In this document: positions 6,422 through 31,278 of the stretch, piece after piece
How the letters are laid out: every line of letters starts with the position of its first letter
Numbering within the stretch: the stretch's first letter is position 1
NCBI GenBank assembly: GCA_013361705.1
Contig: JABFXN010000144.1
Coordinates: forward strand, 1-33,995
Origin: Acidobacteriaceae bacterium
GTDB taxonomy: Bacteria > Acidobacteriota > Terriglobia > Terriglobales > Acidobacteriaceae
DNA length: 33,995 nucleotides
Direction: 5' to 3'
The notes under the pieces: generated by a model
Databases searched by the model: none
Seen by the model: only the letters and a program-made list of their open reading frames with translations
Told to the model about the DNA's origin: nothing
Position numbers and translations under genes: made by a program

Positions 6422-6454
6422 CGGGAACGAACGACTATCTTTTCGTTTCACGGC

Positions 6455-6570: not shown

Positions 6571-6709
6571 CGCGACAGCGATCTGTTCTGGCCACAATCG
6601 CACTCTCGGTATTTCGAATTTGGTCTGTTGGGATTCGGGCGGCAACGCAGGATTAGACGGGTCAGGGGGTTCCACTTCTCAAATGATTTCAGACATGCAC
6701 AGACAACAC

Positions 6710-15053: not shown

Positions 15054-16628
15054 CTACCACCACAAAATGTTCATCAGGATAGTGGAGGCGAACAGGATGA
15101 CCGCGAGAACGCAGAGCATCCGGTTTCTCGGGATCAGGTCTTCACTCTGCCATCGGAGCGTTGCGTGCTGCTGCGCAGCGTCCGGCGTCGCAGGCGGGCT
15201 TGAGAGCCAGCCTACGACCATCGCAATCGTAAACGCATAAATGGAGGCATAGAAATTTGCGGACATCGTGCTTCCGTAGTGCAGCCATCCGCGCATGACA
15301 GCAATGGAATGCAGCGAGGAGAGGATGGACCCGGCGAAGAAACCGATCATGGCGCCGCGTTCCGAAGTTCTGCGGGAGAAGATACCCAGAAGAAATACTG
15401 CCCAGAACGGCGCCGCAAAGACGGAAAAGATCAGTTGCACGTGCTCCATCAGGTTGGCGAAGAGGAAGTTGAGATACGACGCAAACAGGCTGACGATAAC
15501 CGCAAAGAGCACGGCCACCCGTCCCATCGTCAGGTAGTGCTGGTCAGACTTTCCGGGCCGAAGCACCTGATGGTAGATATCTTCAGTCCACAGCGCGGCA
15601 AATGCCGAAACGTTCGATGCCAGCCCCGACATCAGACTGGCAGCGAGCGCCGTGATCCCCAGGTCAGTCAGCCACCGGCCGTAGAGCAAGGTCATCAGGG
15701 ATGGCAGCGCCCGGTCATAGCGATTCAGGTTCGGCACCAGACCGTAGGCCACCAGGCCGGGCACGATCACGATCATGGAGAAGATGTGTTTGCCGAAACC
15801 CGCCCACAGCGGCACCTGTCTCGCCTCAAGTTCCGTACGAGCGGTGAAGGCACGCTGCATGAGCACAAAGTCAGTGCACCAGTATCCGAAGCTGAGAACG
15901 AGGCCAAGGCCGACAGCAACACCGAGCACATCCATCGGAGCGTGCGGGGCAACCAGCGGTAGACCACGCCAGAGATGCACACGATTACCGAGGGCCCAGG
16001 CGGGAAGTGTTCCGAAGCGGCGTGCGCTGAGGATCGCCAACGGAAGCAGGCCGGCGACGATGACGGCAAGCTGAAAGATCTCGTTATAGATGGTGGCCCG
16101 AATGCCGCCGAGCAACACATAGATCGTCAGTGCGATAGAGCAAAGCGCGATACCGTATTCGAATGGAAGCGACATGGTCGCCGCCAGAACCTGCGCGACA
16201 GCGTATTGGCTGATGCCGGCCAGAAGCAGGAGCATGATCGCGGTGATGCATGCGTTGATAAGGCGCATCCGCGGGCCATAGCGGAGCAGAAGATATCCCG
16301 GCACGCTGGTGATGTTGTTTCGCCGGTAGATGGGCATCATCCAGAGCGCGAGAAAGATCATGGCCGGGATGGCGCCCACCCAGTAGAAATGAAGCGCCTG
16401 GGCTCCATATTGAGCAGCCATGGCGCTAAGTCCAACAATCTCAAGAGCGCCGCAGTTGGTCGCGATATAGGCAGTAACCACCGCCCACAGAGGCATGACG
16501 TGGGTTGCGTTCAGATACTCGTTGACAGAGACATTCCGCCGTTTCGAGAACCATCCGATGACCATCGTGGCGACGAGATAGGCGGCAAAGAAAGCGAGAT
16601 CGGCACCCAGAGGCCTTCCGGATTGCAT
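15054..16628 (-). CDS. Sodium:solute symporter (SSS family), probable sugar transporter
   Basis: A 524-residue multi-spanning inner-membrane protein with about 14 predicted helices and SSF hallmarks: an opening helix ending VIGWFSKRRN, SVPGYLLLRYGPRMR, and GGIRATIYNEIFQ (the 'GG..A..WTD..Q' region of sugar symporters, here with YNE). Family members couple Na+ to uptake of galactose, glucose, proline, pantothenate and others. Galactose or another hexose is the best guess from the adjacent LacI gene and the alpha-galactosidase. The ATG at 16628 lies two bases after the LacI stop codon. A TTG at 16632-16634 overlapping that stop (TTGA) would give two extra residues. Translation is therefore probably coupled to the regulator, and no independent ribosome site is seen. 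Confidence 0.88.
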   Translation of the reverse strand: MQSGRPLGADLAFFAAYLVATMVIGWFSKRRNVSVNEYLNATHVMPLWAVVTAYIATNCGALEIVGLSAMAAQYGAQALHFYWVGAIPAMIFLALWMMPIYRRNNITSVPGYLLLRYGPRMRLINACITAIMLLLLAGISQYAVAQVLAATMSLPFEYGIALCSIALTIYVLLGGIRATIYNEIFQLAVIVAGLLPLAILSARRFGTLPAWALGNRVHLWRGLPLVAPHAPMDVLGVAVGLGLVLSFGYWCTDFVLMQRAFTARTELEARQVPLWAGFGKHIFSMIVIVPGLVAYGLVPNLNRYDRALPSLMTLLYGRWLTDLGITALAASLMSGLASNVSAFAALWTEDIYHQVLRPGKSDQHYLTMGRVAVLFAVIVSLFASYLNFLFANLMEHVQLIFSVFAAPFWAVFLLGIFSRRTSERGAMIGFFAGSILSSLHSIAVMRGWLHYGSTMSANFYASIYAFTIAMVVGWLSSPPATPDAAQQHATLRWQSEDLIPRNRMLCVLAVILFASTILMNILWW

Positions 16629-16630
16629 GC

Positions 16631-17671
16631 TCAACGCTTGCTCTTTTTCTTCGGCGCACTCTTCGGTCTCGCGGTACTTTCGCGGACGATCAGTTGTGTG
16701 GGAACAGAGAACTCCGCACCGATTCGCTCGAGATTCTGTTTCGTATAGTTCATTGCCTGCAGACAGGCGGTCGCAAGCCGCTTGCGCGGAATGCGGATAG
16801 TGGTAAGCGGCGGCTGCACCACTTCACTCAGGAAAAGGTCATCGACACCGACGATCGAGAGGTCCCGCGGAACAACCAGGCCGAGCCGATGAATGCCGAG
16901 CGCAGCACCCAAGGCGGTAAGGTCGTTCGCGGTAATGATCGCGGTTGGGGGAGCAGAGGTCTTCATCAGCGACACAACCGCAGCTTCACCACCGGTGACC
17001 TGATAGTTCCCACGTCGTGTCAGCCCCGGATAGAAGGTCAAACCCGCGCCGCGTATTGCCTGTTCGAACGCATTGGCTCGCACTTCGGAGGTATGTGGGC
17101 CTTTGGTGCCGCCGATGTACCCGATCCGTTTATGCCCAAGCGTTTTCAGATGCTGCACGGCTTCGACGAAGCCGAGCTCGTAGTCAATGGAGACGTCGCT
17201 GCAGCCGATCTGTACCGTCCGGCGGTCCACGGTAACCAGCGGGATCTGGCGCAGAAGCAATGGTTCTACTGCACCGGTATCAAACTCGGAGGAGACCAGG
17301 ACGGCGCCATCAACCTGCCGCATCAGCATGCGCCGGACAGATTTCACCAGTTTGTCGGAGGTCTGCACGCTGATGGGCAGCACTTCGTGATCGATGTCGA
17401 TGAGCAGATCTTCGAAGGCGCCTACGAACTCGCCGAAGAACGGGTTTTGAAGATCCGGGAGGACTAATCCGTATGTTCGACTGCGGCCATACTTCAGCAT
17501 TGCCGCACTGGGGTTGGGAATGAATCCGGCTTCGCTGACGACGTCTCTGACCTTTTTAGCGGTGTCCTCGCGGACCAGGGAGGAACCGCTCAGGACACGC
17601 GAAACCGTGGCACAAGACACGCCTGCGCGCCGAGCGATCTCGCGCATATTCACAGGTCCCAAAATACCCAC
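16631..17671 (-). CDS. LacI-family transcriptional regulator
   Basis: A 346-residue repressor. The N-terminal LacI helix-turn-helix with hinge is at ~9-60 (MREIARRAGVSCATVSRVLSG.S.VRE.T...V), followed by a periplasmic-binding-protein-like effector domain (YGLVLPDLQNPFFGEFV, HKRIGYIGG, TAIITANDLTALG, LSIVGVDDLFLSE..QPPLTTIRIP). A basic tail ends the protein (PKKKSKR). Such proteins bind CG-centred palindromes and release on sugar binding. The reading frame begins at GTG 17671, with AGGA ten bases upstream; GTG 17653 or ATG 17647 would start nearer the helix-turn-helix and are real alternatives. It is the first gene of a two-gene unit with the symporter and is divergent from the Tat-protein gene at 17826, so it may control both plus the GH36 gene. 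Confidence 0.93.
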   Translation of the reverse strand: MGILGPVNMREIARRAGVSCATVSRVLSGSSLVREDTAKKVRDVVSEAGFIPNPSAAMLKYGRSRTYGLVLPDLQNPFFGEFVGAFEDLLIDIDHEVLPISVQTSDKLVKSVRRMLMRQVDGAVLVSSEFDTGAVEPLLLRQIPLVTVDRRTVQIGCSDVSIDYELGFVEAVQHLKTLGHKRIGYIGGTKGPHTSEVRANAFEQAIRGAGLTFYPGLTRRGNYQVTGGEAAVVSLMKTSAPPTAIITANDLTALGAALGIHRLGLVVPRDLSIVGVDDLFLSEVVQPPLTTIRIPRKRLATACLQAMNYTKQNLERIGAEFSVPTQLIVRESTARPKSAPKKKSKR

Positions 17672-17825: not shown

Positions 17826-18986
17826 ATGAAGTACGATGCTTCATTCCAGGCGGTTTCAGCTTCACGACGTGCTTTCCTACGCGGCGCTGTCGGGATGGTT
17901 TCGGCAACTTCGTTCAGCAGCAGCCTGGCATTGACCGGTTCCGCCATACGCCCAGCCGACAAGACGATCGTCGTAACCTTCGGCGGCGGCGCGCGCGATG
18001 AGGAGACCTTCGCGGAAGAGGGTCAGGCAAATATCCCTAACCTGCTGCATACGCTGCTGCCTCAGGGCACCTTCTTCACGCAGGTTCGGAACGCCGGCAT
18101 TCTTGGTCACTATGTCGCGACGGCGAGCATCGTCACCGGTGTTTATGAACGGTTCAACAATTTCATTGCTCAACCGCCGCCGAATCCTACCCTCTTTGAG
18201 TACTTCCGCCGGGAACTGCGGCGGCCGGAGACCGATGCATGGGTGATTGCCCCCAGCAACGGCTTCCAGAAGATCGGCAGCAGCAGTGCCCGAGGCTTCG
18301 GTCCTCAGTTCGGTGCAGGCGTCATTCTGCCGAAACGCCTGCTCAGCGCCGCTTCACGAAACACCCCCAATCTATTCGATAACGATCAGTTGCAGCATTT
18401 CCTGCAGGACAACTACGAGATGCCCTCGTACGACATCTCAGCGACCGCGCAGGATAACGAGATGCATCTGGATACGCTGGAATCGACCTTGCGGCTCTCG
18501 GTCCAGGACTTCGTACAGCACGCCAAAACTCTGGACAGCGCCGACGAGCTCTCCATCTTCATTGCCAGGCGGCTGATGGATCAGCAGGCTCCCTCGCTCA
18601 TGATGTTGACCCTGCACGACATGGACGTTGCCCACTCCGGAGCCTTCTCGCTGTATATTGACGCGATTCAGCGTGCTGACCGTCTCTGCGCTGAGCTTTG
18701 GAAGGCTGTACAGTCTCATCCGGAATATAAGGACCGTACGACCGTCTACATCATGCCGGACTTTGGCCGCGATGCCGATGATGATCCAGCCGGCAATGGA
18801 TTCCAGCATCACCGCACCGGGAGTGCAATGGCTCGCACCACCTGGCTGCTTGCTCTGGGACCTCATGTCCGTCAGAACACCGTCGTTGATCGCGCGATTG
18901 AGTCTATTGATCTGGTGCCGACCATCGGCTGCCATCTTGGCTTCAGCACCAACTCGCCGGGCCGGTGCATTGAGGAGCTGCGATGA
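17826..18986 (+). CDS. Tat-exported alkaline-phosphatase/sulfatase-superfamily-like protein
   Basis: A 386-residue protein with a twin-arginine signal (SASRRAFLRG, Arg14-Arg15, then a hydrophobic stretch to ~40). The layout follows the alkaline-phosphatase superfamily: a first strand TIVVTFGGGARDEETF (~47-62), then IPNLLHTLLPQGTFFTQVRNAGILGHYVATASIVTGVY, and a C-terminal metal-site region TVYIMPDFGRDAD..GNGFQHHRTG (~306-332). The first strand lacks the usual Asp-Gly metal ligand (Phe-Gly-Gly-Gly instead), and there is no C-x-P-S-R formylglycine motif, so it is not a standard type I sulfatase. It may be a divergent phosphoesterase or a DUF1501-like protein. The start has no Shine-Dalgarno. Its stop overlaps the next gene by four bases (ATGA), so the two are co-translated. 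Confidence 0.7.
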   Translation: MKYDASFQAVSASRRAFLRGAVGMVSATSFSSSLALTGSAIRPADKTIVVTFGGGARDEETFAEEGQANIPNLLHTLLPQGTFFTQVRNAGILGHYVATASIVTGVYERFNNFIAQPPPNPTLFEYFRRELRRPETDAWVIAPSNGFQKIGSSSARGFGPQFGAGVILPKRLLSAASRNTPNLFDNDQLQHFLQDNYEMPSYDISATAQDNEMHLDTLESTLRLSVQDFVQHAKTLDSADELSIFIARRLMDQQAPSLMMLTLHDMDVAHSGAFSLYIDAIQRADRLCAELWKAVQSHPEYKDRTTVYIMPDFGRDADDDPAGNGFQHHRTGSAMARTTWLLALGPHVRQNTVVDRAIESIDLVPTIGCHLGFSTNSPGRCIEELR

Positions 18987-20194
18987 CACCGGATCAATTG
19001 CAGCCGTCGTCGTTCGACCGCTATCCGCCGCTGGCGCGCAGCTTCGCGGTGGAACACCTGGCCCTGCTGCGGCAGTTGCCGCTTACGATCTGCCCGTCGT
19101 TCCTGGCGCAGATCTCCGATCTCGATACTCGTTTTCCCATTGAACGAAAGACTCTGGCATGGCAATGCGATTCCCTTGCGGCTCTTCCGCAGGAAAAGCG
19201 CGATGCCCTGCTTGCTCCACTACGCGCCATTGCAATGGCGCCGGAGTTGGAGAAGCTGGACTGGGTTAACTCTCCGGCAGCTTTCGTAGAGCGTCTGAGC
19301 GCGCATCTGTGGTCTACAGGGCAGATCAACGGTTTCCATGATGCATCGCGCGACCTTTTTGCCGCCATTCCGGATCAGCCGAATGAGGCCACACGGCTCG
19401 CACTGATCGTCGTCGGGCAGAGTGCGGATACGTCCCGCGCATCGATTCTCAGCAAGCTGGCGCGGAAGGGTATCCGATTGAACGGGGTAAACCCAGCGAC
19501 CGCGCAGCAGCAACTGCTGGAAGCATTTGCGAAACACGCGGCGAAAGGGCAAGAGGCCTACGCGCATTGGTATGTCGACGGCGGCCAGCCGTGGGTGCTG
19601 CCTGAGAGTGTGCGGGCTTCCGCCATCCAGGTCAGCTATCCCCAGCTCTCTCCTTTGCGGAAACGTGTGCTGGAGCGCATGCAATCGATCCTTAACACGA
19701 ACCAGGCCAATGCTGAGAAGATGCGCAGCGATCTTGCAGCGATTGCTCCGACTGAACTGCGCAGCGGACAGGTCGCATCCGATCCAATTCTGCAGCGCTT
19801 CTATACCGAGCTGTTCACATCGGGCTCGGGCACACAGATCTTCAGCACCTCGTTCGTGCAGTGGGCCGGACGCGAGCTTGCGCGCCGTGCACAACCGCAC
19901 ACCGTTTTGCTGCGGTATACACCGCGCCAGCGTCATCGCGGCTTCAACGAGATGGTGAGCGATCCGGAATCGAAGGCGCTGGATCCGGAAGGCTCATTGG
20001 TCGACGCCGAGATGAACGCGTACTACAACTGGATCGAGATGGGCCGTATTGCAGCACCTGGCAAACTGACCGTGCTGGCCTGGGTAGAGGGCAGTTCCAA
20101 GGCTGTGATGGTCAGCCCGAAGACAAAGCCCAATACGATCTCCAATCAGGCTGTCACGATCGAACAGGCCCTGGCGTCGTTTGCAGTGGTTTGA
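18983..20194 (+). CDS. Protein of unknown function, partner of the Tat protein
   Basis: A 403-residue protein I cannot assign. It has no signal peptide or membrane helix, so is probably cytoplasmic. The N-terminal third is Leu/Pro-rich and helical (EHLALLRQLPLTICPSFLAQ, LDTRFPIERKTLAWQ). The middle carries WYVDGGQPWVLP (~198-209). The C-terminal third contains the most distinctive segment, FSTSFVQWAGRELARRAQPHTVLLRYTPRQRHRGFNEMV (~285-323), with a Trp-Ala-Gly-Arg core and a basic R-Y-x-P-R-Q-R-H-R stretch that could bind phosphate or nucleic acid. It starts four bases before the end of the Tat-protein gene (ATGA), which implies a shared function. The gene ends toward the convergent GH43 gene. 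An Acidobacteria-restricted family is my guess. Confidence 0.75.
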   Translation: MTPDQLQPSSFDRYPPLARSFAVEHLALLRQLPLTICPSFLAQISDLDTRFPIERKTLAWQCDSLAALPQEKRDALLAPLRAIAMAPELEKLDWVNSPAAFVERLSAHLWSTGQINGFHDASRDLFAAIPDQPNEATRLALIVVGQSADTSRASILSKLARKGIRLNGVNPATAQQQLLEAFAKHAAKGQEAYAHWYVDGGQPWVLPESVRASAIQVSYPQLSPLRKRVLERMQSILNTNQANAEKMRSDLAAIAPTELRSGQVASDPILQRFYTELFTSGSGTQIFSTSFVQWAGRELARRAQPHTVLLRYTPRQRHRGFNEMVSDPESKALDPEGSLVDAEMNAYYNWIEMGRIAAPGKLTVLAWVEGSSKAVMVSPKTKPNTISNQAVTIEQALASFAVV

Positions 20195-20230
20195 GTTAGA
20201 TCAAGCCTTACGCTCGGTCTCTAATTTGTT

Positions 20231-20260
20231 TGTCATTTCGTAGCGAAGCGGAGAAATCTA
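20231..20260. repeat. Short dispersed-repeat-like motif
   Basis: TGTCATTTCG-TAGCGAAGCG-GAGAAATCTA resembles the widespread intergenic motif of the type 'GTCATTTCGAGCGAAGCGGAGAAATCT' that I recall from many bacterial genomes. It lies in the 136-bp gap between convergent genes. Only one copy is in the window. Confidence 0.3.
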
Positions 20261-20330
20261 CTTCTCTACCTATTCCTTCTCGGTGTCATCTCAGAACAAG
20301 TCTCTCCACCGCAAGCTATCTCGACACACC

Positions 20331-21731
20331 CTACTGACCGCGATAGACGCTCCACTCAAAGATCGCAAGATCGGATGCAGGCGTGCCTGCTGCAAAATTC
20401 AACCGTAGATAGCGCATACGCGGCAGGCGCAGAAACGCTGTCGGCGAGCCGCTGGTGCCTTCTCCTGTCTGATCAACGATCGGAAACCACTTCACCCCAT
20501 CAAGAGAACCTTCCAGACGATAGCGGTAGCGCGTCCATGCGTATTCGAAGCTCACCTTCGCCGTTGTTCCCGCAATCGGTCGACCGAGGTCCAGAACAAG
20601 CCACGGAGCTCTATCATCCGCACTCGGCTGCCAGCGCGTCGCGTAGTTGTCGTCCAGAACTGCAGCTGCAGCGAAGTCTTTACTTACGGTACTGGAGGCA
20701 GTCGCCGTTACAGGAAGGTGATCGGCATCGCGCGCGCTGGTATGCAGCAGTGCTGGTCCTGTATGTGTCGGCCTCACCTTGTGCAGTGTATGAGCTGCAT
20801 CATCGACAACCAGCTCATCCATGCAGAGCTGCCGCAGAACTGATGCCGTCTGGAATGGCAGGCTATGGCGGTGATAGACGATGTAAGTCTTTCCATTACG
20901 CTCGAAGACCGCATGGTGTCCAGGGCCAAGGATGTCATGCTCCTTATCGCTCACCAGAATCGGACTGGTAGCGCCTTCATGGAATGGGCCAAACGGATTG
21001 TCAGCGACGCTGTAACGCACGTTGTAGGTGTCATCCGTAGTCTTGCCCTCGGAGTACATCAGGTAGTACGCACTGCCGTGCTTGAACATGAACGGGCCTT
21101 CGAAGTAATGCCCGGGAGTTACATCCTTCGGTTCGCCGTCGAAGGTGACCATGTCGGCCTTCAGACGGACCACGAAGCAGTGTCCGTTCACCCAGTTCAA
21201 TCCTGATCCCCAATACAGATAAGCCTGACCGTCGGTATCGACAAAGACCTCCGCATCGATCATGTGATATCTGCGATCGAAATCTGCACGTATGAGAGGG
21301 CGGTCGCCCAAAGCATTGCTCCATGGCCCAAGCGGCCGGTCTGCAACACCAACCCACACTTCACTGCCCACTGAGACATACATGTAGTAACGGCCATTGG
21401 GCGCATGAATCACTGACGGCGCCCACACCATGCTGCTTTTGGAGGTAGGGCTTGTCGCCGCTTCCTTGGTAGGCCAGTTCAAAGAACATGAAGACCAATG
21501 CACGATGTCGGCGGACATCCAACAGCTCAGCGTGCGGCCTCCCCATGGATCTTCTGTCGCGAAGACATACGTAATTCCGTTGTCCTGCAGAACCGTCGCA
21601 TCAGCGTTGTATCCCGGAATGAATGGATTTCCGTTATGAGGCGTATTCCACTTCGTAGCCCCCGGCTGCTGGGCACTGGCGAATCCGGCAAGAGTGAGGC
21701 AGAACAAAAGGAGGGTTCGACGTATGCTCAA
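20331..21731 (-). CDS. GH43-family glycosidase with C-terminal discoidin (F5/8C) domain
   Basis: A 466-residue exported enzyme. Residues 1-20 are the signal peptide. The five-bladed GH43 propeller (~30-330) shows the expected catalytic set: Asp44 in GYNADATV (base), Asp159 in HMIDAEVFVD (pKa modulator) and Glu211 in YFEGPFMFKH (acid). Residues ~345-466 form an F5/8 type C / CBM32-like domain (TASSTVSKDFAAAAVLDDN, WLVLDLGRP, YLRLNF). Family activities include alpha-L-arabinofuranosidase, arabinanase, beta-xylosidase and exo-beta-1,3-galactanase. Arabinose or galactan removal fits the locus best but is inferred. The start is TTG at 21731, overlapping the cytochrome stop as TTGA, with AGGA eight bases upstream; no in-frame ATG is near. 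It is the last gene of the redox/glycosidase unit. Confidence 0.9.
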   Translation of the reverse strand: MSIRRTLLLFCLTLAGFASAQQPGATKWNTPHNGNPFIPGYNADATVLQDNGITYVFATEDPWGGRTLSCWMSADIVHWSSCSLNWPTKEAATSPTSKSSMVWAPSVIHAPNGRYYMYVSVGSEVWVGVADRPLGPWSNALGDRPLIRADFDRRYHMIDAEVFVDTDGQAYLYWGSGLNWVNGHCFVVRLKADMVTFDGEPKDVTPGHYFEGPFMFKHGSAYYLMYSEGKTTDDTYNVRYSVADNPFGPFHEGATSPILVSDKEHDILGPGHHAVFERNGKTYIVYHRHSLPFQTASVLRQLCMDELVVDDAAHTLHKVRPTHTGPALLHTSARDADHLPVTATASSTVSKDFAAAAVLDDNYATRWQPSADDRAPWLVLDLGRPIAGTTAKVSFEYAWTRYRYRLEGSLDGVKWFPIVDQTGEGTSGSPTAFLRLPRMRYLRLNFAAGTPASDLAIFEWSVYRGQ

Positions 21732-22141
21732 TGCTTCTTTCCTGGACGCTGTTTTGCGTCTGTGTTCGTCTTTGCCGGTGCTTCTTTCATTTGAGAAAGA
21801 TACTGCACCAGCATCTGAATCTCGTCGTTGGTCAAAGCCTCGCCAAAGGGCGGCATCGATTGGCCGCCGTTACGGATCTGACCTTCGATAAAAGTCTTAT
21901 CGCGACGCAGACCGACGCCCCGTAGCGAGGGAGCTTTCCCCTCGGTTCCTTCCAGGTGCTCACCGTGGCAATAGACGCAGCCTTTCTGTTTCGTTAACGC
22001 TGCTCCGTCGAGCGGCTGGTCTGGTTGTTTTTCCTGCTGTGCTTCCTGAGCCCGGACACGGCATGCATCCGTGAGCCCCCAAAAGAGTCCCAAGAACAGC
22101 ACGATGCAGCGAAGGCCCGTCAGCGAAAGACGTCTGTACAC
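21728..22141 (-). CDS. Monoheme c-type cytochrome
   Basis: A 137-residue exported cytochrome. A signal peptide covers ~1-31 (to VRAQ). One heme motif CVYCH (Cys55, Cys58, His59) and the sixth ligand Met96 in SMPPFGE define a class I cytochrome c of the cytochrome_CBB3/C-like type, with a typical closing helix DEIQMLVQYLSQM. It should carry one electron in the periplasm, plausibly from the five-heme protein encoded just upstream. The start is a GTG at 22141 with GAGG six bases upstream. That ribosome site lies immediately after the stop of the five-heme gene, nine bases away, and the cytochrome's own stop overlaps the GH43 start (TTGA). The three genes are therefore tightly linked. The tail is basic (KQRPGKKH). 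Confidence 0.92.
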   Translation of the reverse strand: MYRRLSLTGLRCIVLFLGLFWGLTDACRVRAQEAQQEKQPDQPLDGAALTKQKGCVYCHGEHLEGTEGKAPSLRGVGLRRDKTFIEGQIRNGGQSMPPFGEALTNDEIQMLVQYLSQMKEAPAKTNTDAKQRPGKKH

Positions 22142-22150
22142 GCGTGTCCT

Positions 22151-24424
22151 CTAGTTCTGCGTCGCCGTAAAGTTCGTTGGAAGTGGGCCCTGGATATGAT
22201 CCTGGTTCGAATCGAGCTCATGCGCGTGCCAGAACACGCTTTCATTTGCAATTTCAGGGTGCTGGTTAAGGAAGTTCAGAGCGAAGCTGTTGGCGGAGGG
22301 ATCATCCTTCTGATCATTGAAGGTCGCCGACTCCTTTGCCGCCATCTCCTTATCGCCGAGCCTGCGGTAGAGGATCGAAAGGATATAGTGCGCTGCCAGA
22401 TCATCGGGATCGATGCCCTGCACTTTCAGATACTCCTCCTTCGCCTCATCGTAGCGGTGCAGTTGGTAGAGCGAGAAGCCCAGTTCGCGATGCGCATCCC
22501 GCGAGCGCGGGAAGGTGACGATCACCTGCCGAAGAAGAGCAATCGCCTCTTCCAGGTCTCCAGTATTCCGTTGGACCAGCGCGAGATAATACTGCGCCCG
22601 CGCATTTCCGGGTGAGAGCTTCAGAGCTTCATGCAAGTGGTTGGCGGCTTCGCTGTAGCGCTGCCAGAAGAATTCCGCGATGGCCTGGTTCGTGTAGGCA
22701 TCGGCATAGGTGGGCCGCAGCGCCGCAACATGTTTGAAGGCGTCGAGCGAGGCGGCGTACTGCTGCGCATCCAGTAGCGCGATCCCGTAGTTATTCCAAC
22801 GCATCCAGTCTGGGTTCTCATTCGGAACCGGCTCCGTGCGGCCGTTCTTGCCGACCTGGATCGTGCGCGACGTAGACACCACCTCAACCACCGGCTGCGG
22901 ATAATGATCGTTGCCGGTCTTCTTCATGCCGAAGTCCATGAAGTGTTGATTGAAGCGGCGATACCGCACGGTCGCTGTCAGCGTTACCGGCCCAGTGCTT
23001 GCAGCCGGCATATGGAAGGCGTAACGCACCAGTTGCGAGCGGCCTGACTGAATGGTGTTGTTGTAGGCAACGATCCTTGTGTTCCATACCTGATGCTCAC
23101 GGTTCTGGACTGTATCCGGATCGATCAGGCGATTTGTGAACGAATGCGCCCGCGGATCAAGATCACCGTTCGGCTGCAGGAAACCGCTCTCGAACAGCAC
23201 CTTGCCGGCCTTATCCTTGACCGTAAAGTCGACCCACGACTCATAGAAGTCGCGCTGCTCCGGGACCAGGGCATGCGCAATGCCCTTGTTCTGCAACACC
23301 ACATCCGCCGTAATCAGTTCGCCGGGCTTCACTTCGAAGCTCTGCATTCCCAGCGGAGCAGAGACATCTTTCCCGTCACTGCCATGCTCCAGCGCAAAAA
23401 GATCGACATTGAGGTAGTTGCTGCGCAGGAACTCGACGATCTTCTTCGCCTGCTCGTCGTAGCCGTAGTACTGCGGAATGATGGTGTTTGCTCCCAACCA
23501 GCGATGTGAGGCCAGTTCCCCATTCTTCGCTCCGGGATCGGGAAGGCTGATCTTTTCGCGCACCATGTGGCAGGTCACGCAGGTGGAGACAGAGTCCTTG
23601 ACATAAAACGGCAGCGGAGACTGCTTCGCAAACGAGGAGTTCTGCCACTCGTCGTACAACGAGATCGCACGCTGCCACTTATAGTCATTCAGGGATCGGG
23701 GAAGAGCCGCCTTGTGGCATGCAGCACAGAACTCCGATGTTTTATAGAGAGGCTGCATGACCGCTGCCTTATGACGGTCGAGATGCGTCAGGATCTCGAG
23801 ATCCGAGACCTGGCGTGTAATACGGGCGCCGTTCTCATCCACAAGCACGGCCGGCACTGCAAGCACATACGAGCCGGTGCCGCGCGTGTCGGTCTTCTGG
23901 ATGGAATGACACACAGAACACGTGACGCCATCGGCATCAAACGGGCGGCGCTTGTCAGCACCCTGGGTGAGGGTACCGGCTACCGTAGCCACGGGATCAT
24001 GACAGCCTTCGCAGTGGCGCGTGTATTCCACGCCTTTTGAGTCTTTCAACAGGTCCACGTTGCGCAGATACCATGGCGCTCGATTGGAGTTGGAATGTGC
24101 CGACTCACGCCACTGATGCTGAGCTTCTTTATGGCAGCGTCCACAGTACTGTGCGGTTGGGAAGTCCTTGGGGTCGATAAACTGGCCCGTGTCCGTCGTC
24201 ATCAGTGAAGGCAGGAAGTGCTTTTCCGGGCTGAAACGGTCGTTGTAGTTCGCGTTGACCTTCTCGTTGTACGCCGCTCGCTTTGCGGCAGCGGTCTCCG
24301 CCTCGGTCGCAGCGGAAACCTTGCCGCTGCTGCCGCGCAACGCGACCGCAATTCCCAACGGGAGAACGGCTGCCGCGGTCAGCAGCAGGCCAATACCTTG
24401 CGAGGAGAAAAGGCGCTGCTTCAT
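22151..24424 (-). CDS. Five-heme cytochrome c with TPR domain
   Basis: A 757-residue protein. Residues ~8-32 are a membrane anchor or signal. Five CXXCH sites lie at Cys94 (CGRCH), Cys138 (CEGCH), Cys169 (CSVCH), Cys233 (CAACH) and Cys282 (CVTCH), in an arrangement like cytochrome c554-type multiheme proteins. A beta-rich middle region (~330-520) without heme sites follows. Then come at least four TPR units (~535-700; NNYGIALLDAQQYAASLDAFKHVAALRP, AQYYLALVQRNTGDLEEAIALLRQV), suggesting a protein-binding surface. The ATG at 24424 has AAAGGTGG about eight bases upstream; the upstream GTGs at 24436 and 24433 fall within that site. It begins a three-gene unit with the monoheme cytochrome and GH43. 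The substrate is unknown; electron transfer linked to periplasmic sugar oxidation is a guess. Confidence 0.92.
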   Translation of the reverse strand: MKQRLFSSQGIGLLLTAAAVLPLGIAVALRGSSGKVSAATEAETAAAKRAAYNEKVNANYNDRFSPEKHFLPSLMTTDTGQFIDPKDFPTAQYCGRCHKEAQHQWRESAHSNSNRAPWYLRNVDLLKDSKGVEYTRHCEGCHDPVATVAGTLTQGADKRRPFDADGVTCSVCHSIQKTDTRGTGSYVLAVPAVLVDENGARITRQVSDLEILTHLDRHKAAVMQPLYKTSEFCAACHKAALPRSLNDYKWQRAISLYDEWQNSSFAKQSPLPFYVKDSVSTCVTCHMVREKISLPDPGAKNGELASHRWLGANTIIPQYYGYDEQAKKIVEFLRSNYLNVDLFALEHGSDGKDVSAPLGMQSFEVKPGELITADVVLQNKGIAHALVPEQRDFYESWVDFTVKDKAGKVLFESGFLQPNGDLDPRAHSFTNRLIDPDTVQNREHQVWNTRIVAYNNTIQSGRSQLVRYAFHMPAASTGPVTLTATVRYRRFNQHFMDFGMKKTGNDHYPQPVVEVVSTSRTIQVGKNGRTEPVPNENPDWMRWNNYGIALLDAQQYAASLDAFKHVAALRPTYADAYTNQAIAEFFWQRYSEAANHLHEALKLSPGNARAQYYLALVQRNTGDLEEAIALLRQVIVTFPRSRDAHRELGFSLYQLHRYDEAKEEYLKVQGIDPDDLAAHYILSILYRRLGDKEMAAKESATFNDQKDDPSANSFALNFLNQHPEIANESVFWHAHELDSNQDHIQGPLPTNFTATQN

Positions 24425-24536
24425 GCTAGCCACCACCTTTCAGAGGCTGTCATACGCGTACTTGTCCAGTGTGTTATCAAAACCGGGATACCTGTGTCGA
24501 GATCAATTCCAAAATCTCCGAAGTAATTGTTTCCAT

Positions 24537-24557
24537 TGGGCATTCAGAAGGTGCCCA
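24537..24557. terminator. Weak hairpin after the GH35 gene
   Basis: TGGGCA at 24537-24542 pairs with TGCCCA at 24552-24557, just beyond the GH35 stop on the minus strand. There is no T-tract, so partial termination or mRNA end protection is the most that can be claimed. Confidence 0.25.
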
Positions 24558-24559
24558 TT

Positions 24560-26179
24560 TCAAAACGTGCTTAGACGAATTCGGACTACGGTGTTCTGGC
24601 TGCGGTGGAAGTTCAGGCCACGATCGGTCTGATCGCCGTTCCACAACCGTTTCGCCTTCCAGGTGCCATTAACGTACTCGCCTTCTTCGGCACTGAGTAT
24701 CTGCATCCGGAGCCCCGGAAGCCGATCGGGAACGTGGAACGCAACGCTGGACTCGACGCCCGTTACCAGGAATTCGTTGGGACCAAGTTGTGCGACGAGC
24801 GCTCGGCCGGAGTGATCAGGAGTGCCAGGTGCATGGCGGCCGTCCTGCTGCGGGAATCCAAAGCGGACGGAGGCCTTCCAGGGACCGAAATCGAGCTCCT
24901 GCTCAGCCTGTCCTGGAAGTTCCACCGAGGTCTTCAGCTTTCCTTCAAAGTTGAGTTTGGCGAGTTCATCCGCCATCGGTCCCAGCAGAGCATAGTTCCG
25001 GGTGTGAGCCTTCGGTCCGTCATCTTTGCCGAAGGTCCAGCCGGTCTCGTCCACACCGAACGGCGAGAAACCGATAGCTCCATGGCCTAAAGCCTGGAAC
25101 AGATAAGGCGCGTAGCTGTCGCCATTGCCAGTCTCAGGAATCCACAGTGCATTGTCCGGGCGAGCATAGGCGTCGAGCACACTTTTGTAGAAACCAGGAT
25201 CGTCGGAGTAGATGTCCGGACCGATGACATCGATCGACGGTGCAAGAGCCTTCCAGAGTGGAAGCATCGCTACGGTTGGCCCGCCGGAGGGATAACCGAT
25301 GCCTGGATTGCGTACCTGGCGTTCGGGAAGCTCTCCGATGGGATAGGCCAGCCAGACATTGCAGTACATGGGAATGTTGAACTCGTGCTTCCCGGCTGCG
25401 GCGATCTCATTGACGTAACGAGCCTGGTAGTAGGCCTGGAAGGTTTCGTCCGCATCACCGCCGAATACTTCAAACCAGGTGCCGGGCTGTTTGTGCAGCG
25501 CGTTGACGAGATCCGTGGGAACAGCGCCGGCGAACTCGCGGTTCGACGCTTCGGAGAAGTCGCGTGGCGTGCCGATGTTCCCGGACTCGTTTTCGACCTG
25601 CACAAAGATCACGGTGTGATCCTTGCTGTCGATCTCTGCCAGATGATGCATCATCGCCGCAAAGGCTCGCTTGTCAGCCTCGAGGTTGGTGCGGGACTGC
25701 GCGGAAAGGACATCCAGAGGTTCACCCGACCGATTGATCACCCGTGCGTACTTCTTCGGATCTTCCTTCACCCACTGCGGCACATAGTGCATGTTGCCGT
25801 TCTTCCAGGTGCCGAACCAGAGGATGACCAGATGCATGTTATGCTCGCGGCTTTGGCGCACCAGCATGTCTACAGAGGAGAAATCGAACTTGCCGGGGGT
25901 TGGCTCCATCTGCTCCCAATAGATCGGAGCTTCGATGGTATTGGTATGCATGCGCTCCAGAGCAGGCCAGACCTGCGGCATGGTGTCAGGCCATGTGCTG
26001 GAGTTATTGATCTGCGCTCCCAGTACCAGAAACGGTTTGCCGTTTACCAGAAGGGCGTGACGTCCGTCCTGCTCAACGACCTTCGGCGCTGGGACTGCCT
26101 GGGCCTGCGGTGCGGCCTGCGGGACAAATACCAGCGTGGCTGCAAGCGCGAGGGTCAAGCAAGTGGCAGAGATAGGCAT
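24560..26179 (-). CDS. GH35-type beta-galactosidase with DUF5597-like C-terminus
   Basis: A 539-residue exported glycoside hydrolase. A signal peptide spans ~1-27. The clan-A barrel (~40-370) has the GH35/GH42-like opening LVNGKPFLVLGAQINNSSTWP, acid/base Glu198 in FVQVENESG (the last Glu of the GH35 E-N-E motif) and nucleophile Glu349 in LWIPETGNG. The remainder (~395-539) is a beta domain resembling DUF5597, usual for this bacterial subgroup of GH35. Expected action is release of terminal beta-galactose from oligosaccharides in the periplasm. GGAG seven bases upstream fixes ATG 26179. It starts 29 bases after the TPR gene and is probably co-transcribed with it. With GH36 and GH43 in the same window it points to a galactose/arabinose-rich substrate. 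Confidence 0.9.
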   Translation of the reverse strand: MPISATCLTLALAATLVFVPQAAPQAQAVPAPKVVEQDGRHALLVNGKPFLVLGAQINNSSTWPDTMPQVWPALERMHTNTIEAPIYWEQMEPTPGKFDFSSVDMLVRQSREHNMHLVILWFGTWKNGNMHYVPQWVKEDPKKYARVINRSGEPLDVLSAQSRTNLEADKRAFAAMMHHLAEIDSKDHTVIFVQVENESGNIGTPRDFSEASNREFAGAVPTDLVNALHKQPGTWFEVFGGDADETFQAYYQARYVNEIAAAGKHEFNIPMYCNVWLAYPIGELPERQVRNPGIGYPSGGPTVAMLPLWKALAPSIDVIGPDIYSDDPGFYKSVLDAYARPDNALWIPETGNGDSYAPYLFQALGHGAIGFSPFGVDETGWTFGKDDGPKAHTRNYALLGPMADELAKLNFEGKLKTSVELPGQAEQELDFGPWKASVRFGFPQQDGRHAPGTPDHSGRALVAQLGPNEFLVTGVESSVAFHVPDRLPGLRMQILSAEEGEYVNGTWKAKRLWNGDQTDRGLNFHRSQNTVVRIRLSTF

Positions 26180-26208: not shown

Positions 26209-27642
26209 TTAGTTCTTTGCAGTCAGGAAAGTAATCACTTCCTGCATGCGCCGGTTGTTTTCGTCTTTGGATTGCTGGGCGTACTTCTGCTGTAATGCGA
26301 TCTCCGCCTGTGCCTTGTCCCCTTTTCCGAGACGTACATAGGCGCGTGAGAGACGGTAGTGCGCTTCAGGAAATGCGGGACGCTGTTCGACAGCGTGCTC
26401 CAGGGATGCCGCACTTTCATCCCACTGATTTCTGCTCTGCTGCAGCACACCCAGCTCATACCAGGCATCGGCAAGCCTTGGGTCCGCCTTCAGGGAGTGC
26501 TGTAACAGGGATTCCGCTCTTGCGGTATCGCGCGTATCGGTTGCTTGATGAAGAATACTGCTTGCAGCGTAGAGTGATGCCATTGCATTCTCAGGGTGGG
26601 CATCGGCAAAGGCCTGCAATGTATCGCAACCGGTAACAGAGGTACTGGTTGCGGCCTCGCAGCTTCTGCCAAGTAGCTCCGCGGCGGTGGCGTTTTGCGG
26701 AGAGCGCTGCAGCACCGCCTGAAAGGGCTGAGCAGCCAGATCGTAACTGTGGTTGCCAAAGTATGCGATGCCGAGCCCCATCTGCAGTAGCTCGCTTGAT
26801 GGATACTTCGAAACTCCATACTTGAAGATTTCGATCGCTGAATCAAAGGCCCAGTGCTGCAACATCTCATTGCCAAAGCCGAAGATCATGGGCTCGGAGG
26901 GATCCAGCTGCGCGGCGAGCCGAAAGTGCTTCACCGCCTCGGTATAGTTCCCTGTCTTCTCTTCCGACTCGGCAAGAATCTCTTGCGCGGGCGCGGACTT
27001 GAGAGCTTCAGGGGACGATGCAAGCAGGTCCTTTGCCTTGGCCGGCTGGCCGCTCTTCAGCAGGGCTGTTGCCCAATCGATCCGCATGTCTAAATTTGCC
27101 GCAGCATTGCTCGCTCGCAACACCGCATTCGCCTTTTCGAAAGATGCGGCGGCGGCGGCGAACTCGTCCCGCTGCATCTGCACGGCGGCAAGCGCCAGGT
27201 GATAGTCAGACTTTGCGGGAGCGCGCTTTACGAGGTCGCTAAAGATCTCTTCGGCGCGTTTCGTGTTGACGGACTTCATCGCAGCAACGCCGAGATTGAA
27301 AGCAATGGCAGCATCGTTTCTGTTCTGAGTATGCGCACGCTCCAGGAACGGCACTGCAGCGATGTTATCGCCGGAGTCTGCCAATGCCATACCGGCGGCC
27401 GCCTGAAGTTCCGTTTGACACGGATAGGTCTGCGCAAGCTTTACCAGCTGGGGTTTTGCCTGTTCGAGATCGCCCTTGTTATAGCTTTCAAGCGCATTGC
27501 GAGCCAAAGCGACATCCGCCGGCGAAAGAGCGTTCCCGGAACAGGTAGCAGGATGCACCGTACGCTTCGCCGTCGTCTGTCCATACAACGTCAGAGGCAC
27601 ACTACACAGCAGAAGCACGGCGGCTTTTGAAACAGATCTCAC
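26209..27642 (-). CDS. Exported TPR-repeat protein
   Basis: A 477-residue protein with a signal peptide (~1-21, ending LYGQ) followed by a nearly continuous array of tetratricopeptide-type helices. Recognisable units include ALESYNKGDLEQAKPQLVKLAQTYP, AIAFNLGVAAMKSVNTKRAEEIFSDLVKRAP, AWYELGVLQQSRNQWDESAASLEHAVEQRP and AHYRLSRAYVRLGKGDKAQAEI. It has no catalytic motif and is probably a periplasmic scaffold. TPR proteins of this kind commonly sit next to TonB receptors and CRTAC1 proteins in Acidobacteriota. The start is a GTG at 27642 with only a weak GGAC upstream. It follows the receptor gene by 87 bp, across a strong stem-loop. Confidence 0.87.
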   Translation of the reverse strand: MRSVSKAAVLLLCSVPLTLYGQTTAKRTVHPATCSGNALSPADVALARNALESYNKGDLEQAKPQLVKLAQTYPCQTELQAAAGMALADSGDNIAAVPFLERAHTQNRNDAAIAFNLGVAAMKSVNTKRAEEIFSDLVKRAPAKSDYHLALAAVQMQRDEFAAAAASFEKANAVLRASNAAANLDMRIDWATALLKSGQPAKAKDLLASSPEALKSAPAQEILAESEEKTGNYTEAVKHFRLAAQLDPSEPMIFGFGNEMLQHWAFDSAIEIFKYGVSKYPSSELLQMGLGIAYFGNHSYDLAAQPFQAVLQRSPQNATAAELLGRSCEAATSTSVTGCDTLQAFADAHPENAMASLYAASSILHQATDTRDTARAESLLQHSLKADPRLADAWYELGVLQQSRNQWDESAASLEHAVEQRPAFPEAHYRLSRAYVRLGKGDKAQAEIALQQKYAQQSKDENNRRMQEVITFLTAKN

Positions 27643-27729: not shown

Positions 27730-30700
27730 TTAGAAGTTGATCTTGCCCGCGAACTGCCAGAACCGCGAGTCTGGGTAGAACTGACCCAAGCTGCGGGCGG
27801 AGGTAATCTGTCCGCCACCGGATCCGATGTTGGCATCGGGGTTGCCGTAGGCAGGCGTGTTCAACAGGTTGAAGTAGTCAGCACGAAGCTGGAGGTTCGT
27901 CCCCTCGCGCCAGATGTTGAAGGTCTTGAAGAGTGAGCCATTGATGCGCTGGTATCCCGGGCCGTAGACCGAGTTACGTGGCGAACCAAGATAGGGCAGT
28001 GCCGCGGATCCGGTGATGACAGAACCAGAAGCAACTGCAGGAGGATTGATGAAGGAGCAGGGGTTATACCAGTGCGTGGGCGTCCGTACCTGAGCCGCAC
28101 ACGCTACGGTATCGGTACGGCGCGAATCCGCCGAGCCACCAGCAGCGAACGGATCGCGAACCGCAATCGGATGCGCCGTTCCACCGGCCTGGGTGCTCAC
28201 GTTGGTGTTCATGCTGAATGGATTACCCGTCTGCGCGATGAACGTCAAACTGTTCGTCCATCCCCCGAAGACAACGTCCATCAGACCATGATGATTGCCA
28301 TACTTCTTGCCGACGCCGTACGGGAAAGCATACGAGCCGTTGAGCGCAAAGCGCTGGCGCACATCGAAGGGTGAGTTGCTCCAGTCCGGACCCAGGCCGA
28401 TCAGGTTCGGATTCCGGAAGCCGGCGTCGCCGCGGCTGCCCAGCGGAGTCGGAGCATTATCAAGAGCATGCGACCAGGTATAGCTCGCCAGGAAGCTAAG
28501 GCCGTTGTGCATGTGCTGATCGAGTTTTGCCTGCAGCGAGTTGTAGCTGGAACCTCCAGCGTACGAGCTGTAGGCGGTACCGTTGATTCCCGGGAAGGGC
28601 TTGTAGTTGGTTGTGTTCTGGCCGGATGCGAGCAGCGCTGTCGATCCGTTCTTATCCGGGAAAACAATGAGGTGACGTGAGTTGGAGCCCACATACGCCA
28701 ATCCCGCAGAGAGCGTGGGAGAGATCGCATACTCGGTTGAGAGGTTGAACTGCTGGCTGTACGGCGTCTTCACCTGAGCATCCGATCCGCGCAGACTCGG
28801 GTTAGAAACCGAATTCTGCAAACCGGCGGCGATAGCGGCAGAGAAGCCATTTTCCAACGTAATACCGTTGTTACGGCAGCTTGTCGTGCTGCAGGATCCA
28901 TACAGTGTTGTGGAGTTATATCCCGACTCGAACATGAACGGATAGTTCAGGCCGAGGTTGGGATAGTATCCCGCGCTCTCGAGACCGCCGTAGAAGAGAC
29001 CATAGCCCGCCCGCAATACCAGCTTCTCCGACGCCTTGTAGGCGATGCCGAAGCGGGGTGCGAAGTTGGTCTTCTGCGGTTGAATCAGGAAGCGGTTATC
29101 GGAGTAGGCGATGTTGATGCGGTTGGCCGCCATCGTGTTCGTGAAGCTGCTTGCCAGTGATACATTCCGCTTGGAGCTCGGAAGATAGTAGGTGCCCGTT
29201 CCTGAGTTGGGACCAATTGTGTTCACGACAAAAGCCGCCTGGTTATCGTGACGTTCCATGTAAGGCTGCGCATACTCGTAGCGCAGGCCAAGGTTCAGAG
29301 TAACCCGCTGTGAAATCTTCCAGTCATCCTGGAAGTACGCCGCACGAATCCACCGGACATCATCCGTGGTGGCGATGTTGGTAAGTGCTGCGGTGTCCAT
29401 GTTGTTGGTAAGGAAGTCCGCAACGCCGGAACCCGTGTATGCGATTCCGCCGGTCGTGGGCGAACCCGCTCCCGCCGTAAACTTACCGCTGTAGCTGTAG
29501 GTACCGCGGGGTTCGATGGGCTGAAGCGTCGAGAAACGAATGCGCTGGAAGTTAATGCCGGTGCGGAAGCTGTGGTTGCCGACAATCTTGGTGACATTGT
29601 CCAGAATCTGATAGACGTTCTGATGCTCGTCGGTTGGCGTCCAGGTCGGTGTGCCAAATCCGGTGATACCACTTATCCCAACATTAGGCAGACCGCCATT
29701 CGTGGAGCCTCCCGGAATACCGCCAAGTCCAATGCTGGCCGCAAGATTCGCGTTCGACGCGTTCGGCTGCGTGAACCCGAAGTTACCGTAGTTGTAGCCG
29801 AAGCGCGCTTCATTGACGAAGCTCGAGTTGAAGACGTGCGTCCAGCTTGCTGCCAGAGCTTCTGAGAGGTTGACAATGTTGCCAGTGTCGCCGAAACCAC
29901 CGCCATCCAGAACTGGTCCCAGGAGTGGCGCACGGGTGCCCGGAGTATCGGAGTAGCTGACACGAATGAACGCCTGGTCGCTCTTGGTAGCGTTGTAATC
30001 AGCACGGATATCGAACTGGGTTGTGTTATCGATCGCGTTTCGGTTGCTGAAATAGTTGTTCGAGATCCGGCCGTTCAGACTCTGATTTGCTACCGGATAC
30101 ATATTCAGAATCTTCAGCGCAGTGGCATTGATCTGGCTTGCGCAGAGGACATTGTTCTGGCCATTGCAGCTCATCGGCGTGGCGATGTTGCCTGAGTTCG
30201 GCTGCACCAATTGGACGGGGTTACTATTTCCGGTTTTGGTGGTGTCCAGAAGCTCTGAGAAGTTGCCCTGGCGCATCAGCGTCGTCGGTACGGAGACGTT
30301 GCTGCTCTCGCCGAAGATGATGCGATTCGCTTCCACGTCGCCAAAGAGGAAGAGCTTGTCTTTGAGGATCGGGAAGCCCAGCGTGCCGCCGAACTGATTC
30401 TGACGGTACTTGGGAACTACACGATTGCCAAACGACGACCACTCATGGATATCGAAGGCATCGTTACGGATATATTCCCAGGCCGAACCGTGAATCTTGT
30501 TGGTACCGGACTTCACCGATACGTTGACGACTGCGCCGGCCGAGTGGCCGTATTCCGCGCTGTAGGCGCCGGTCTGCACCTTGAACTCAGCCAGTGCCTC
30601 CGGTGGAGGCTTCACGCTGTACGAAGCTCCGTTGAAGAAGTCCACAACGTTCACGTTGTTATCGACACCGTCCAGAAGGAAGTTGTTCTGCTCGGACCGC

Positions 30701-31278
30701 ATGCCGTTGGCGGAGAAGTCGCCCTTACCCGAACCGCGCGAACCATTACCGGGAGCAATGCCGGCTGCGAGCTGCGCGATGAAGACGTAGTTACGTCCGT
30801 TCAGCGGTGTGTCGACGATGGTCTGCGCTTCAATAACCTGTCCCGTCGAACCGTCACCGGTCTGCAGGAGAGGCGCTTCCGTCGTTACAACGACCGTCTC
30901 TTCCGCTCCGACCTGAAGTGCGATGTCCACGGTCGCGCGTTCAGCGACGTGGAGCTGAATGTTTTCCTGTTGCTTGGTGGAAAAACCGGAGGCCGTAACT
31001 TTCACGGAGTATTTGCCGATTTTGATGGGAGAGAAGGTGTAGGTTCCTCTGGAGTCCGTTCTGTCCGTCAGGACGAATCCCGTATCCACGTTCGTTACAG
31101 TCACCGTCGCATTCGGGACTGCAGCGCCTGAAGGATCCGAGACGGTGCCTGTGATGGCACCCTGGTCGACCTGAGCGTACAGAGGATGAGTTGCCAGAGA
31201 AACAAGTGCGAGAAGCATGGATAGTACCCATGCCATACCTCGCCGCGTGCAGAGTTGGTTAACTGCGCGTGCGTTCAT
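27730..31278 (-). CDS. TonB-dependent receptor with carboxypeptidase-regulatory-like N-domain
   Basis: An 1182-residue outer-membrane protein of the large acidobacterial TonB-receptor type. The signal peptide is 1-35 (ending PLYA). A carboxypeptidase-regulatory-like Ig domain covers ~38-125 (GAITGTVSDPSGAAVPNATVTVTN..T.SRGTYTFS). A plug domain follows at ~140-260 (TPLNGRNY, QNNFLLDGVDNNVN, EYGHSAGAVVNVSVKSGTN), then a long beta-barrel with many aromatic-rich strands and terminal Phe (FAGKINF). Such receptors import oligosaccharides, functioning as SusC analogues without an obvious SusD partner; none is seen here. ATG 31278 has GAGGGG eight bases upstream. Its 229-bp leader holds five CG-centred palindromes, so it is probably the main regulated promoter of the locus. 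Confidence 0.94.
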   Translation of the reverse strand: MNARAVNQLCTRRGMAWVLSMLLALVSLATHPLYAQVDQGAITGTVSDPSGAAVPNATVTVTNVDTGFVLTDRTDSRGTYTFSPIKIGKYSVKVTASGFSTKQQENIQLHVAERATVDIALQVGAEETVVVTTEAPLLQTGDGSTGQVIEAQTIVDTPLNGRNYVFIAQLAAGIAPGNGSRGSGKGDFSANGMRSEQNNFLLDGVDNNVNVVDFFNGASYSVKPPPEALAEFKVQTGAYSAEYGHSAGAVVNVSVKSGTNKIHGSAWEYIRNDAFDIHEWSSFGNRVVPKYRQNQFGGTLGFPILKDKLFLFGDVEANRIIFGESSNVSVPTTLMRQGNFSELLDTTKTGNSNPVQLVQPNSGNIATPMSCNGQNNVLCASQINATALKILNMYPVANQSLNGRISNNYFSNRNAIDNTTQFDIRADYNATKSDQAFIRVSYSDTPGTRAPLLGPVLDGGGFGDTGNIVNLSEALAASWTHVFNSSFVNEARFGYNYGNFGFTQPNASNANLAASIGLGGIPGGSTNGGLPNVGISGITGFGTPTWTPTDEHQNVYQILDNVTKIVGNHSFRTGINFQRIRFSTLQPIEPRGTYSYSGKFTAGAGSPTTGGIAYTGSGVADFLTNNMDTAALTNIATTDDVRWIRAAYFQDDWKISQRVTLNLGLRYEYAQPYMERHDNQAAFVVNTIGPNSGTGTYYLPSSKRNVSLASSFTNTMAANRINIAYSDNRFLIQPQKTNFAPRFGIAYKASEKLVLRAGYGLFYGGLESAGYYPNLGLNYPFMFESGYNSTTLYGSCSTTSCRNNGITLENGFSAAIAAGLQNSVSNPSLRGSDAQVKTPYSQQFNLSTEYAISPTLSAGLAYVGSNSRHLIVFPDKNGSTALLASGQNTTNYKPFPGINGTAYSSYAGGSSYNSLQAKLDQHMHNGLSFLASYTWSHALDNAPTPLGSRGDAGFRNPNLIGLGPDWSNSPFDVRQRFALNGSYAFPYGVGKKYGNHHGLMDVVFGGWTNSLTFIAQTGNPFSMNTNVSTQAGGTAHPIAVRDPFAAGGSADSRRTDTVACAAQVRTPTHWYNPCSFINPPAVASGSVITGSAALPYLGSPRNSVYGPGYQRINGSLFKTFNIWREGTNLQLRADYFNLLNTPAYGNPDANIGSGGGQITSARSLGQFYPDSRFWQFAGKINF

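Follow-up and report, generated by a model that had tools for sequence, protein, structure and literature searches.

Cytochromes and polysaccharide breakdown

Secreted electron carriers tied to polysaccharide breakdown have been described before, among them the c-type cytochromes, such as Cbp2D, that reduce lytic polysaccharide monooxygenases (LPMOs) (passages of PMC8981238, PMC12542752 and PMC10916295). In Verrucomicrobia, the PSCyt-CBM proteins carry cytochrome domains that are thought to be active in carbohydrate breakdown, their function being unknown, and their abundance is inverse to that of glycoside hydrolase (GH) genes (r = -0.62; passages of PMC5615132). Here we analyze a 33,995-nucleotide stretch of DNA from an Acidobacteriaceae bacterium (assembly GCA_013361705.1, contig JABFXN010000144.1; the whole stretch is called the window below), in which three genes between positions 20331 and 24424 encode a five-heme cytochrome with tetratricopeptide repeats (the multiheme-TPR protein), a monoheme cytochrome c and a GH43 glycosidase. 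An earlier reading made from the letters alone (the sequence-only reading) had proposed a dedicated glycan-linked respiratory module, on the premise that polysaccharide loci lack electron carriers of their own, a premise that the LPMO-reducing cytochromes and PSCyt-CBM proteins show to be not quite right. Our data show that the cytochrome pair is real and conserved and is more general than that reading proposed, and that its link to sugar loci is repeated, statistically supported and found at a minority of loci.

Cytochromes of the Cbp2D type reportedly come with carbohydrate binding, whereas neither cytochrome of the window has a match to a carbohydrate-binding module and no LPMO was recognized among the window proteins scanned (the scans were confined to the window, without the open reading frame (ORF) at 1-2898 and small ORFs), so the locus is not of the Cbp2D type. 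What it shares with those systems, as far as the passages cited go, is an association of electron carriers with polysaccharide breakdown. With the PSCyt-CBM proteins it likewise shares a tie to carbohydrate breakdown, but the cytochrome domains are different ones. The heme part of the multiheme-TPR protein is most similar to the pentaheme cytochrome c552 of PDB entry 5ze8, which we take to be that of Thermochromatium tepidum. In passages of a paper on cable bacteria (PMC11976967), the structure of the T. tepidum c552 is tied to an archaeal nanowire as well as to ExtKL-type proteins. The likeness to this c552/ExtKL (PHC) group lies in the five hemes: the profile match runs over hemes 1-3, in the same order and with a W-x-x-S-x-H stretch inside the aligned region, and the last heme is collinear, but at a non-significant score. 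The group differs in that the similarity is weak (E 2e-6) and the window protein adds a C-terminal TPR part. Behind the hemes, members of the group have an immunoglobulin-like domain, and the window protein has a middle domain for which PDB and Pfam gave no relative at the thresholds used. Passages of a 2025 paper describe CRTAC1/FG-GAP genes with hydrazine-synthase-like clusters (PMC12758564), which resemble the present locus in having an FG-GAP/CRTAC1 gene beside genes for heme-protein subunits, the sequences not having been compared directly. Judging by titles and abstract openings, the module was not described among the matches listed in the literature on UnbV/CRTAC1, FG-GAP, multiheme cytochromes and TPR, or in that on Acidobacteriota/Terriglobus cytochromes and glycoside hydrolases, nor was it described in those passages of two Acidobacteria genome papers (PMC3174227, PMC5900883) that matched the search terms.

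A conserved cytochrome pair

The multiheme-TPR gene (22151-24424, minus strand, 757 aa from its ATG, with a second possible start at an upstream GTG at 24436) is followed after 9 bases (22142-22150) by the monoheme cytochrome gene (21728-22141, minus strand, GTG start, 137 aa), whose stop shares TTGA (21731-21728) with the start of the GH43 gene (20331-21731, minus strand, TTG start, 466 aa). The sequence-only reading had given this arrangement correctly, and the protein types it named are borne out by Pfam: Cytochrome_C554 (36.8 bits against a cut-off of 20.8) and TPR in the first ORF, Cytochrome_CBB3 and Cytochrom_C over cut-off in the second, and Glyco_hydro_43 (E 4e-49) with a C-terminal F5/8 type C domain in the third. 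The monoheme protein, with a single heme motif (CVYCH) and a distal methionine (M96) that is retained in 90% or more of 71 rows, has the features of a class I cytochrome c, in which the methionine would bind the heme. The GH43 protein has an apparent signal peptide (by eye), and its nearest solved relative is 5msx (E 5e-45). Exactly five CXXCH motifs occur in all 144 non-redundant copies of the multiheme-TPR protein, that of the window included, and the 4-base overlap of the cytochrome and GH43 genes is kept in 4/4 loci of the window lineage (the window, L035, L036 and L115); the three-gene arrangement is therefore more than chance. The best matches to the window multiheme protein are 98% identical in the metagenome-assembled genome SH_60_12 and 97% identical in Terriglobus albidus DSM 26559, which suggests that the host is a Terriglobus-like acidobacterium. 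T. albidus DSM 26559 carries this same locus (L116/L035).

Of 200 Acidobacteriaceae genomes, 62 gave a match to the multiheme protein at an E-value of 1e-60 or better, and carriers of the multiheme family include named strains of Terriglobus, Edaphobacter and Bryocella. A profile search recovered it from 118 of 396 genomes of the phylum, including longer relatives of ~950-1000 aa. For a census of its surroundings, 80 stretches from family genomes, 80 named loci and the window were taken together (161 stretches); 157 gave an anchor (4 gave none) and 13 duplicates were dropped, leaving the 144 copies, which were divided into subfamily A (at least 56% identity to the window multiheme protein) and subfamily B (the rest). 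Census ORFs are longest-ORF picks, not gene calls. The monoheme cytochrome gene lies in the same-strand run (gaps of at most 150 bp) of 50/144 copies, always at +1 of the multiheme gene, and the two genes overlap by 4 bases in 17 of these 50 pairs with longest-ORF starts; in some loci it is a few genes off or on the opposite strand. The 469-aa cytochrome of L180, considered as a fusion, was rejected as one, because its extension has neither a Pfam match nor a counterpart among the remaining ORFs of the set.

The most constant companion of the multiheme gene is an FG-GAP/UnbV protein, present in the same-strand run at 68 of the 144 loci, where a TPR protein is present at 15 and a small protein without a Pfam match at 26. 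In a controlled count, 97 other loci with full 7.7-kb flanks, made up of 38 subfamily A loci with an adjacent cytochrome (paired A), 24 without one (unpaired A) and 35 of subfamily B, were set against 40 offset control stretches from 20 genomes; 43 of the 144 copies with short flanks (8 of them paired) and the 4 of the window lineage were left out. In that order, FG-GAP/UnbV genes were found within 7.7 kb at 31/38, 12/24 and 32/35 loci and at 1/40 controls, LacI regulators at 16/38, 8/24, 7/35 and 2/40, TPR proteins at 18/38, 3/24, 16/35 and 2/40, and sensor kinases of the Reg_prop/Y_Y_Y type, with domains assigned from the window member, at 16/38, 7/24, 2/35 and 2/40. The local profiles were seeded from the loci themselves, which favors the loci for families not named beforehand; combined tests for any GH by local profile were not relied on for that reason. 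An earlier census with 8.3-kb flanks (29 paired loci including the window lineage; GH43 at 6/29, controls 0/40) retained too few loci, and this one took its place.

Farther afield, longer multiheme relatives (~950-980 aa) at L295-L298 are either flanked by FG-GAP genes or followed by two of them. Among 20 distant loci the multiheme gene was labeled by local profile in 14, one of which (L290) has four CXXCH.

Glycosidases beside the pair

The clusters to which the GH43 and GH35 of the window belong are each present in the same-strand run at 4/144 loci, all of the window lineage, and the GH43 genes found near the multiheme gene elsewhere are of unrelated types. Among the 97 controlled loci, GH43 lies within 7.7 kb at 5/38 paired A, 0/24 unpaired A and 0/35 subfamily B loci and at 0/40 controls, GH51 at 3/38, 1/24, 0/35 and 0/40, and GH13 at 3/38, 1/24, 3/35 and 0/40. 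A genome-wide count with the Pfam model (187 GH43 genes and 84 subfamily A copies in 78 genomes) placed GH43 at most 5 kb from a subfamily A copy in 10/78 genomes; outside the window lineage it was 6 of 74, against 0.57 expected under uniform placement (Poisson P 3e-5). The other two families, which were picked after being seen, lie within 5 kb in at least 4/74 (GH51, 0.44 expected) and at least 5/74 (GH13, 0.72 expected, one counted gene lying at 4,999 bp) of these genomes, and the three families jointly in at least 13/74. These 5-kb proximities were read off tables by eye, and no GH family besides the named ones was surveyed at every locus.

Where a glycosidase directly follows the pair, its type differs from locus to locus: at +2 of the multiheme gene there is a GH43 in the window, L041, L173 and L186, a GH13 in L125, and a GH77 in L282 and L283, which belong to a further family and have the order multiheme-cytochrome-GH77. 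L041 reads GH51-multiheme-cytochrome-GH43, with a 4-base overlap between multiheme and cytochrome genes and a 1-base overlap between cytochrome and GH43 genes, and its GH43 is 25% identical to that of the window. L280 and L281, from another family outside the class, read GH13-multiheme-GH13 behind TonB-TPR-TPR (GH13 by Pfam in L280, by local profile in L281). Among the distant loci, those whose glycosidases were examined with Pfam are L280, L282 and L283. A quick tree was made of 72 copies, seven GH-bearing rows among them having been added manually. The GH label must have changed on it, by gain or loss, at least 12 times, and well supported branches dictate 9 of these changes; with shuffled labels the mean was 17.0 changes, and 3/500 shuffles gave a count as low as 12. 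The label is therefore partly clustered, yet has several origins or losses.

The reading that we tentatively prefer is that of an extracytoplasmic electron-transfer module which has several times been placed into or beside sugar loci and which would match electron flow to sugar supply. Several observations weigh against it. Within 7.7 kb, 29/38 other paired loci are without GH43, GH51 or GH13 (9/38 have at least one), and in 61/74 other genomes none of the three was seen within 5 kb among the matches listed. GH35 was found by local profile at 0/38, 0/24, 0/35 and 0/40 stretches, its sole BLAST match at other loci being a 25% identical protein near L107, and GH36 was found by BLAST only in the window lineage. 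The expected counts presume uniform gene placement, the loci are related by descent and not independent, and the TonB receptor counts within 7.7 kb (18/38, 6/24, 12/35 and 10/40; 18/38 against 10/40, p 0.03) are a weak enrichment that was not used as evidence. No sugar dehydrogenase (PQQ, GMC or Gfo/Idh) was recognized among the window proteins scanned, the search not being genome-wide, and the locus has in those proteins no flavo- or quinoprotein subunit such as belongs to the cytochrome-linked sugar dehydrogenases of the GMC/PQQ type. The oxidation of released sugars put forward by the sequence-only reading is conjectural on this evidence. Finally, the nearest outside relative of the window GH43 (65% identical, in G066) has TonB-type genes around it, and its 18-kb surroundings yielded no CXXCH-containing ORF of at least 100 aa; that the window GH43 and the cytochromes form an old joint unit was rejected accordingly.

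Since most pairs lack the tested GH families and GH35 and GH36 do not recur, the gene-order survey led us to reject a strictly dedicated glycan module. The joint task that the sequence-only reading drew from the tight coupling survives in part, in that the cytochromes are a recurring pair with GH43 nearby in more genomes than expected, but not as a partnership dedicated to glycans; likewise, of the glycosidases GH43, GH35 and GH36 that it had named, GH43 alone recurs. A general respiratory module whose glycosidases are incidental neighbors, in genomes rich in such genes, would account for the many pairs without a tested glycosidase, for the lack of GH43 at unpaired A and subfamily B loci with full flanks, and for the confinement of the window's GH43 and GH35 types to four near-identical loci. 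It would also agree with the position of nuoA (complex I), which in 22/144 copies (L043, L049-L051, L055-L059, L085 and twelve named loci) is encoded on the other strand, within three genes of the multiheme gene and upstream of it by one or two genes; this fits a respiratory duty, and a general one at that. We nevertheless consider incidental placement unlikely, because GH43 exceeds expectation about tenfold outside the window lineage, LacI regulators are enriched, the glycosidases at +2 are of differing types, and M28 peptidases, used as a control, had none of their listed matches closer than 5 kb to a subfamily A copy (by eye). Beyond the controlled sets, L181 (unpaired, short flank) has a GH43 at +2 and a subfamily B copy in G204 has one 2.6 kb away.

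Possible role of the five-heme protein

In the electron-transfer module that we favor, the five-heme-TPR protein would be the larger relay and the monoheme cytochrome its mobile partner, with the FG-GAP/UnbV propeller protein as their usual companion; we infer both the location and the direction of electron flow. Such a module would not have been made for glycans as such, but in Acidobacteriota may have come to lie several times in or beside TonB/TPR/LacI sugar loci. In the window it sits with GH35, GH43 and GH36, a set that probably acts on a galactose- or arabinose-containing plant polymer, and the module would most likely allow electron flow outside the inner membrane to be adjusted to the supply of sugar, under a control by sugar that we presume. 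A link of sugar breakdown to electron transport is plausible.

The multiheme-TPR protein comprises a heme part (~55-325) with five CXXCH motifs (first Cys at 94, 138, 169, 233 and 282 in ATG numbering), a conserved middle domain (~325-530), for which no PDB or Pfam relative was found at the thresholds used, and TPR (~540-690). It could instead be catalytic itself, as an NrfA/HAO/MccA/c554-like reductase or oxidase to which the monoheme cytochrome donates or from which it accepts electrons, and whose invariant middle-domain residues would help bind a substrate. Outside the CXXCH motifs only three histidines of the heme part are invariant (H110, H218 and H307, with H137 in 75/79 rows), and therefore a five-coordinate heme is possible; two methionines (M287 in 79/79 rows, M223 in 78/79) could however serve as ligands. 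H384, E389, R391, D392 and H444 of the middle domain are invariant in 79/79 aligned rows, weaker profile matches of the heme part include MccSep (E 7e-4) and MccA (0.036), and the FG-GAP/CRTAC1 genes that accompany hydrazine-synthase-like genes in the passages of PMC12758564 point the same way. The best match, in contrast, is c552, presumably an electron-transfer protein and called low-potential in a paper title, and we regard a catalytic role as quite improbable. An extracellular conduit, in which a c552/ExtKL-family pentaheme domain would take electrons to an external acceptor while sugars are oxidized inside, draws on the collinearity with 5ze8 and on the tie of the c552 structure to ExtKL-type proteins and AvECN (passages of PMC11976967), but is very improbable given the modest E-value, the lack of a recognized porin-cytochrome partner in the window, and the absence of any mention of TPR in that paper (0 occurrences).

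Our preferred reading of a relay placed beside sugar loci can be taken further, to a pentaheme-TPR/monoheme/FG-GAP-UnbV module, undescribed in the literature consulted, that is wired repeatedly into such loci, with the five-heme protein as the missing oxidoreductase of a redox step in glycan use. We find this version doubtful; if true, the module would carry out or drain that step outside the inner membrane. Acidobacteriota are common soil degraders of plant polymers, and to our knowledge little has been established on how their sugar loci connect to respiration, a connection for which a widespread cytochrome family with repeated glycosidase links offers a testable handle.

Other genes of the window and its relatives

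Upstream of the multiheme gene, on the same strand and outside the interval of the sequence-only reading, lie a GH35 beta-galactosidase with a DUF5597 domain (24560-26179, minus strand; NF051902 over cut-off, DUF5597 by Pfam), a TPR protein (26209-27642, minus strand), a receptor of the TonB-dependent type (CarboxypepD_reg, Plug and OMP_b-brl_4; 27730-31278, minus strand) and an FG-GAP/UnbV_ASPIC (CRTAC1-like) protein (31508-33238, minus strand), the last three assigned by Pfam. The GH35 gene is 123 bp (GTG start) or 135 bp (ATG start) from the multiheme gene, and its product is close to the solved beta-galactosidases 8faa and 3u7v and to Bgl35A (4d1i). A TPR protein, not SusD, follows the TonB receptor, and no SusD match was obtained among the window proteins scanned; lacking a SusD-like partner, the locus is not a polysaccharide utilization locus of the SusCD type. 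Downstream of GH43, beyond two plus-strand genes, Pfam identifies a LacI-family regulator (16631-17671, minus strand), a sodium:solute symporter (SSF; 15054-16634, minus strand) and a GH36 alpha-galactosidase (12572-14767, plus strand), and a sensor kinase with Reg_prop/Y_Y_Y and HisKA_3 domains (3311-6595) lies ~15.6 kb from the multiheme gene. The two plus-strand genes (17826-20194) overlap by 4 bases; the first has a Tat-like start (by eye) and sub-threshold phosphodiesterase/DUF1501 matches, and the second has no Pfam match. A scan of 20100-24700 gave 0 promoter-like sites (2.0 expected by shuffling) and 8 terminator-like sites (4.3 expected), both of the coding-strand ones falling within the multiheme gene, and was not used as evidence.

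At 27/79 loci (L079:7825-8343 and 26 further loci) a small protein of ~170 aa is encoded at +1 or +2 of the multiheme gene; the listed loci are of subfamily B, the one member scanned has no Pfam match, and the protein may substitute for the monoheme cytochrome. Records titled Rhodanobacteraceae (L173 and L130) hold multiheme genes 61 and 64% identical to that of the window, and the label of L173 looks wrong because on the tree L173 falls together with a row from Granulicella. ORFs with seven CXXCH lie near the multiheme-TPR gene at L087:3675-5303, L102:12507-14162, L120:4086-5756 and L142:310-1401, the first three being of ~550 aa and those of L087 and L102 adjoining FG-GAP/UnbV genes, and an ORF with ten CXXCH lies near the multiheme gene at L110:2779-3768.

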